DNA of 64,000 nucleotides from an uncultured Spirochaetia bacterium (GTDB taxonomy: Bacteria; Spirochaetota; Spirochaetia; JABEVK01), in NCBI GenBank assembly GCA_937960645.1, contig CALGPJ010000011.1, forward strand, positions 1 through 64,000, given 5' to 3'. A model generated the notes under the pieces. That model was given only the letters and a program-made list of their open reading frames with translations. It was not told where the DNA came from and did not search any database. Both the position numbers and the translations under genes were made by a program. Position 1 is the first letter of the stretch. Every line of letters starts with the position of its first letter. Below are positions 14,493 to 28,073 of this stretch, in pieces.

Positions 14493-15680
14493 TTAGGCGA
14501 TGACTTCGATTACCTGACCAGAAGCGACGGTTCGACCACCCTCGCGGATGGCGAAACGAACACCCTTATCCAACGCGATGGGGGAAATCAGCTCGACGCT
14601 GATCTCGGTATTGTCTCCGGGGAGGATCACGTCCTTGCCCGGCGGAATCTCGATGACACCCGTGACGTCAGTGGTTCGGAAATAGAACTGTGGACGATAC
14701 CCGGTCTTGAAAGCGGTATGACGTCCACCCTCTTCCTTCGAAAGAACGTAAACCGCGCCCTTGAACTTGGTGTGAGGCTTGATGGTACCGGGCTTGGCCA
14801 AAACCTGACCGCGCTCGACGTCATCCTTTTCAATACCACGCAGAAGAGCACCGAGATTGTCCCCCGCCTGGCCCTCGTCCAGGGTCTTGTTGAACATTTC
14901 CACACCGGTCACCACAGTGCTCTTGGTCGGACGGATACCGACGATTTCCACGGTATCACCGACCTTAACCTTCCCTGTCTCAACACGACCCGTCACCACG
15001 GTACCACGACCCGAAATGGAGAACACGTCTTCGATCGGCATCAGGAAGGGTTTGTCGATATCGCGCTCTGGCAAGGGGAAATACTCGTCCATGACATCCA
15101 GAAGCTCCTGAAGGCACTTGGTGGCCTCGGGGTCGTCCGGCTTGGTCATGGCATTGAACGCCGAACCGCGAATGAAGGGGGTCTTGTCACCATCGAAACC
15201 GTACTTGGTCAAAAGCTCTCGAACCTCGACCTCCACCAGTTCAACCAGCTCCGGATCGGCCAGATCCATTTTGTTCAGGAACACCACAATACGCGGCACA
15301 CCGACCTGTTTGGCAAGCAGGATGTGCTCACGGGTCTGAGGCTCGGGACCGGAATCGGCAGCCACGAGAAGGATGGCTCCATCCATCTGAGCCGCACCGG
15401 TGATCATGTTTTTGACGTAGTCGGCGTGTCCGGGGCAGTCAACGTGCGCGTAGTGCCTCTTGGCGCTTTCGTATTCGACGTGCCGGGTATTGATGGTGAT
15501 ACCGCGCGCCTTTTCCTCGGGCGCGTTGTCGATGTCCTCGTAGGACATCTTCTTACCACCGTACTTGGCAGCTCCATAAGCAGTGATGGCAGCCGTCAAG
15601 GTCGTTTTTCCATGGTCAACGTGTCCAATCGTCCCCACGTTAATGTGAGGCTTTGTACGCTGAAAGACTTCCTTAGCCAT
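14493..15680 (-). CDS. tuf: Elongation factor Tu
   Basis: [53 protein letters not shown] upstream. Confidence 0.99.
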
Positions 15681-15905
15681 TCGAATCCTCCTTGGCCTAA
15701 TTTGAGTCTGTATAATTTTCCGCCCTTACGCCTCACAGACGATCAAGGCAGTTTTTTCCTGTATGAGACCCCGAATCGGGGACAACCGCGGATTTAGCCA
15801 GAGGAAATCCACCTACTTCCACAGGGAAGCGGTTTGGATTTAAACCGCCAAATCCAAAGAACACATCGCGCAGAGGTAGGGACGAGCGTCGCTACATGCG
15901 CATTG
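15681..15905 (-). promoter_or_regulatory. Long structured 5' leader of tuf with competing hairpins
   Basis: Minus strand TTTGGATTT-GGCGGTTT-AAATCCAAA (9-bp stem) overlaps GCGGTTT-AAATCC-AAACCGC (7-bp stem); further CTTCC-CTGT-GGAAG and GGATTT-N9-AAATCC stems. Confidence 0.6.
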
Positions 15906-27711: not shown

Positions 27712-27784
27712 CAGGCCGGTAGGGACTCGAACCCTAGACCTGCGGTTTTGGAGACCGCTGCTCTACCAACTGAGCTACCGACCT
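27712..27784 (-). tRNA. tRNA-Trp (CCA)
   Basis: 73 nt cloverleaf; AGGTCGG/CCGGCCT acceptor; anticodon loop CTCCAAA; GGTTCGAGTCC T arm. Confidence 0.96.
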
Positions 27785-27791
27785 TCGTGAC

Positions 27792-27968
27792 TTACTTGAT
27801 TTTGCCCTCTTTGTGGAGGGTATGACGGCGAAGCTTTGGGCAATACTTCATGAGCTCCAGCTTATCCGGATGATTCTTGCGATTTTTGGTCGTGGTGTAA
27901 TTCCGGAGACCCGTTTCTGTGCACACCAAAGCGATCAGCTCCACCGCGCCTTTGCTCTTTTTACCCAT
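27792..27968 (-). CDS. rpmG: Ribosomal protein L33
   Basis: [54 protein letters not shown]. Confidence 0.95.
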
Positions 27969-28000
27969 AAAAACTCCTCTCGTTCTCCCCCAGGGAGGCC

Positions 28001-28073
28001 AGCCCTCGACCGGACTTGAACCGGTGACCCCCACCTTACCATGGTGATGCTCTACCGACTGAGCTACAAGGGC
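28001..28073 (-). tRNA. tRNA-Thr (GGT)
   Basis: 73 nt; GCCCTTG/CGAGGGC acceptor; anticodon loop ATGGTAA; GGTTCAAGTCC T arm. Confidence 0.95.

Follow-up and report, generated by a model that had tools for sequence, protein, structure and literature searches.

In Escherichia coli, the S10 ribosomal-protein operon begins with a long structured leader that is bound by uL4, a ribosomal protein encoded in the operon, and is thereby subject to feedback (PMC10931766). Small conserved hairpins in the 5′ leaders of translation genes, which the motif described here recalls, are found in ribosomal-protein leaders of other kinds, and one survey lists structured-leader candidates upstream of the L7/L12 and L20 genes in Treponema (PMC8040213). 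A further comparison is provided by the boxA/NusB-S10 elements of rRNA operons and of the E. coli suhB 5′ UTR (PMC5725501). The leader analyzed in this study lies in a window of 64,000 nucleotides from the genome of an uncultured Spirochaetia bacterium, in whose coordinates positions are given unless another sequence is named, and it resembles the uL4-controlled leader in being long, structured, and placed ahead of S10 ribosomal-protein genes, but differs from it in that the first gene is tuf, which intervenes between leader and rpsJ, in that the window leader contains no intrinsic terminator (0 terminator-like sites), and in that no Rfam family matches it. Leaders of the window's family share a boxA-like decamer with the boxA/NusB-S10 elements, whereas the part conserved across the class is a bulged hairpin.

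The leader occupies about 225 nt of the minus strand (15905-15681), from the promoter side to the start codon, directly before tuf (EF-Tu; 14493..15680, minus strand), which is a single-copy gene in this genome, with rpsJ, rplC, and the remaining S10-operon genes downstream. Elsewhere in the window (27712-28073), tRNA-Thr, a short rpmG (L33)-like frame, and tRNA-Trp stand in an order usual beside tufB and secE, yet the sole tuf is the one at 14493-15680. A sigma70-type promoter of the tuf operon, TTGACA-N17-TAGGAT (15940-15912, minus strand), agrees with the consensus at 10 of 12 positions, where shuffled sequences yield a mean of 0.3 sites of such quality; an earlier sequence-only reading of this DNA had placed the promoter here, about 225 nt before the tuf start, and transcription of the operon is expected to begin near 15905. 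Promoters of the same form precede comparable leaders in six family relatives, a member of the same genus (L086) and five genomes of two sister genera (L087-L090, L092), and are found upstream of 42 of 127 leaders, against 0.6 expected. The rpsG proteins nearest to that of the window come from Spirochaetales and Treponema, which places the genome in the class Spirochaetia.

Within the transcript, in minus-strand order, a 5′ hairpin GCGCATGTAG...CTACCTCTGCGC (15868..15901), identified by comparison within the family, takes the form GCA-N-GUR...YAC-CUC-UGC in seven family members, with an inner pair that varies among A-U, G-C, and C-G, and is followed by the boxA-like TGTTCTTTGG (15863-15854), a family-level feature. 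The conserved bulged hairpin, UCC-AA-ACC-G-[hairpin]-UA-GGU-GGA, lies at 15838-15808 (core 15837-15809), and its variable apical part is in the window the inserted hairpin CUUCC-CUGU-GGAAG (CTTCC-CTGT-GGAAG in DNA, 15829-15816). The next hairpin, GGATTT-CCTCTGGCT-AAATCC (15810-15790; GGAUUU-CCUCUGGCU-AAAUCC in RNA), contains the element CCUCUGG, which is present 3′ of the motif in 55/127 leaders. An anti-Shine-Dalgarno model acting through CCUCU was rejected, as its strict form showed no enrichment (46 observed, 40 in shuffled sequences). A short hairpin CCCCG-AUU-CGGGG (15769..15781), recognized by sequence reading and folding, a 3′ hairpin CUGCCUU...AAGGGCGG (15720..15751), of which a similar form is readable in the same-genus leader, and the tuf Shine-Dalgarno sequence AAGGAGG (15687..15693) complete the leader, all on the minus strand. 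With small deviations, leaders of the family share the 5′ hairpin with ACCUCU, the boxA-like YGYTCTTT, and CAAAC[C/T]G-hairpin-AGGTGG or AAGTG.

The consensus of the motif is N-CC-(AA)-ACC-G-[variable hairpin]-A-GGU-GG-N (columns N9-C-C-A-A-A-C-C-G ... A-G-G-U-G-G-N62 of the MAFFT alignment, A1), in which two helices flank an AA bulge, a G/A internal loop follows, and the variable hairpin sits on top; the motif has few conserved nucleotides (about 14). Standard pairs fill 98.6% of the pair cells of A1, where partners slid out of register reach at most 72% pairing, and in 19 cells both partners have changed, compared with 5.0 in shuffles; the 97 matches show 98.3% pairing and 36 double changes, against 8.2. 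At the outer pair 9/62, UA, GU, GC, and AU are all seen, at pair 10/61 CG, UA, and GC, and at pair 16/57 CG and UA, and in family leaders that read CAAACUG...AAGUG a change of C to U is matched by one of G to A. The inserted segment varies in both sequence and length, folds with a mean z of -3.1, and closes near its own ends in 119/127 leaders, compared with 40.5 after shuffling. No Rfam family corresponds to the motif: a search of the whole window against Rfam 15 at the gathering threshold returned two tRNAs only, the leader gave no match at E ≤ 5, and nothing was found in the leaders of six relatives or in 14 named loci.

A covariance model of the motif (R1), searched genome-wide at a cut-off of E ≤ 0.1 against 297 genomes of the class Spirochaetia, matched in 134 of them, representing 62 of 112 genera. 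Among 110 matches examined, 89 lie before tuf and on its strand, with a median of 189 nt to the start codon (5-95% range 135-228), and the other 21, inside open frames, are treated as chance hits. Between rpsG and tuf, named Spirochaetales loci usually have a gap of several hundred bases, in which CCAAACC-hairpin-AGGTGG recurs, and in a complete class genome of 1,139,633 bases (L230, G079) the motif likewise stands before tuf. Stretches upstream of rpsJ were sampled from 40 genomes mostly missed by the genome-wide search; tuf lies just upstream of rpsJ in all 40 of these apparently motif-less genomes, and R1 applied to the short loci recovered weak tuf-leader copies in 18. In most loci without the motif, tuf comes right behind the apparent end of fusA, as read from the frames, or after a short gap, as in L251-L254 and similar loci, where it apparently follows fusA directly. 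The motif is absent from a Borrelia-like genome (L091), and a phylum-wide sample of 120 genomes gave three matches outside the class, 0 of them before tuf, so that it looks specific to the class Spirochaetia. In two loci of one family (L053, L048), a near-perfect promoter-like TTGACA-N17-TATAAT lies 3′ of the motif and before tuf, and part of the tuf transcripts would therefore lack the motif there. The proposal made from the sequence alone, that tuf has a structured leader and candidate cis-regulatory RNA, is thereby upheld by a class-wide conserved structure with compensatory changes that occurs almost exclusively before tuf. With this conserved structure, these compensatory changes, and a fixed place before one gene, the motif is predicted to be, in general kind, a cis-regulatory structured leader RNA.

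The same reading had gone further and proposed a switch, in which one strand has three mutually exclusive partners and tuf is controlled by refolding. The hairpins on which it drew are all present where it had placed them, namely a 9-bp hairpin TTTGGATTT-GGCGGTTT-AAATCCAAA (15858-15833, minus strand), a 7-bp hairpin GCGGTTT-AAATCC-AAACCGC (15848-15829, minus strand), and the CTTCC/GGAAG and GGATTT/AAATCC hairpins, and they do compete at near-equal energy: the minimum fold of the 89-nt core, with CTTCC/GGAAG, reaches -30.0 kcal/mol, and folds forced to hold the 9-bp or the 7-bp hairpin reach -27.7 and -27.9 kcal/mol, respectively, a span of 2.3 kcal/mol. The leader as such is more stable than its shuffles (z -2.1 over 225 nt, z -3.2 over 166 nt), and in the same-genus leader (L086) GUUUGAAU can pair with AUUCCAAAC as a rough counterpart of the 9-bp hairpin, a single case read from the sequence. 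However, competing partners for either motif strand pair no better across the 127 leaders than those in shuffled upstream or downstream flanks (mean z -0.07 to 0.11, SE 0.09), and neither the 7-bp hairpin nor the claimed pairing of the AACCGC arm with a downstream GCGGTT has a counterpart even in the same-genus leader. The bulged hairpin is conserved with compensatory changes while the 7-bp arms and AACCGC/GCGGTT are not; the conserved fold, judged comparatively, is one single fold, and control of tuf by refolding, for which the comparison gives no support, is considered most improbable.

The 5′-proximal place of the motif in a long translation operon, its restriction to tuf, and its compensatory changes together point to a cis-regulatory site, most likely a putative protein-binding site for the tuf-S10 operon, and the motif probably controls this long operon of EF-Tu and ribosomal-protein genes. 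Wherever the downstream gene was visible, tuf heads the tuf-S10 operon, and rpsJ closely follows it in every locus long enough to reveal it, so that gene order cannot separate control of EF-Tu from control of the ribosomal proteins. By analogy with known ribosomal-protein leaders (PMC10931766), feedback by an operon protein would be the most likely mechanism: a protein of the translation apparatus, probably a ribosomal protein of the same operon, would bind the bulged stem when in excess over rRNA and lower expression of the operon. An intrinsic attenuator was rejected as a general mechanism, since terminators are absent from the window leader and are not general elsewhere (22/127 leaders, 4/60 shuffled), which makes attenuation at an intrinsic terminator unlikely; in the window leader, which lacks such a terminator, control may instead be exerted on translation or on the stability of the mRNA. 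On balance, with slightly better than even confidence, the window leader is regarded as a copy of a Spirochaetia tuf leader RNA that may serve autogenous control by a translation protein encoded in the operon. A small-molecule riboswitch that sets translation capacity, sensing for example a nucleotide alarmone or GTP, would be compatible with the bulged conserved core and the tight gene association, both of which could suit a small aptamer. That reading is very unlikely in view of the small number of conserved nucleotides, the lack of a conserved expression platform or competing helix, and the fact that intrinsic terminators are not general.

Instead of a site for autogenous feedback, the leader could be a site for antitermination or Nus-factor loading, where the boxA-like TGTTCTTTGG and the bulged hairpin would recruit NusB-S10 (NusE) or a comparable complex to the RNA polymerase that transcribes this very long operon. 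A class relative (G013; L277, around 1645) carries the identical 10-mer in its 16S-23S spacer, the sharing of this element with rRNA operons is judged on that sequence, and boxA-like sequences lie near the rRNA genes of other class members. YGYTCTTT stands 16-18 nt before the motif in family leaders, the gene after tuf encodes S10 (NusE), and the operon is long, with the motif close to its 5′ end. Across the tuf leaders of the class, however, the boxA-like site in its strict pattern is found in only 6/127 (1.15 expected), so that a hairpin conserved class-wide is set against a boxA confined to the family level. Antitermination is an unlikely account of the motif as a whole, and a boxA role as an additional function in the window's family only is plausible from the sequences compared.

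The protein-binding reading could also take the form of molecular mimicry, with uL22 (or uL2) exerting autogenous control through a leader that imitates 23S rRNA helix H49a, which is packed by the tunnel wall beside the uL22 loop. The genes of these two proteins, rplB and rplV, are normally members of the S10 operon. Positions 1606-1623 of E. coli 23S rRNA (CCAAACCGACACAGGUGG) reproduce the leader core, with ACAC as the loop where the leader has its variable hairpin; the strands CCAAACCG...AGGUGG and the ACC/GGU stem are identical, and the 23S rRNA of the window genome itself reads GCAAACCGACACAGGUGG at H49a. This helix lies by the exit tunnel, where extensions of uL2, uL22, and bL34 are reported to stabilize the region (PMC9687910) and A1614 touches the uL22 loop (PMC9687910; PMC6685948). 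In the leaders, however, the apical loop is replaced by the variable hairpin, and the replaced part is the very loop that touches uL22; the outer CC/GG pairs covary in the leaders but are not kept in the 23S sequences of two other spirochaetes. The match has a chance probability of 0.3-1.6% on shuffled rRNA, a figure that applies to a resemblance found post hoc, and R1 assigns a higher score to an unrelated 23S site in G013, where the stretch CCAAACCGUGC...AGAGGUGG (L118, 888-927) fits the leader model, apparently by chance, which is a warning for claims of rRNA mimicry. The resemblance is accordingly a lead and not a result, and autogenous control by uL22 or uL2 through this site is quite unlikely. 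There is a similarly small chance of joint regulation throughout the class, in which a tunnel-wall ribosomal protein (uL22 or uL2) would act on an H49a look-alike heading the tuf-S10 operon and so co-regulate EF-Tu with many ribosomal proteins; if true, EF-Tu and this large set of proteins would be tuned from one site.

Whichever protein might bind it, the bulged hairpin before tuf is a real, class-wide leader RNA motif that has apparently gone undescribed. No tuf-associated candidate is described in the literature searched, which included the main text of PMC8040213, and neither a spirochaete tuf leader nor a tuf-associated RNA motif was found there; an unnamed candidate may stand in the supplements of large motif surveys. 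Beyond a few model bacteria, little is known about how cells control the synthesis of EF-Tu and the ribosomal proteins. The motif and its covariance model provide a compact element before the whole tuf-S10 operon in much of Spirochaetia, including Treponema, and may offer a handle on how translation capacity is set in bacteria that are hard to grow.
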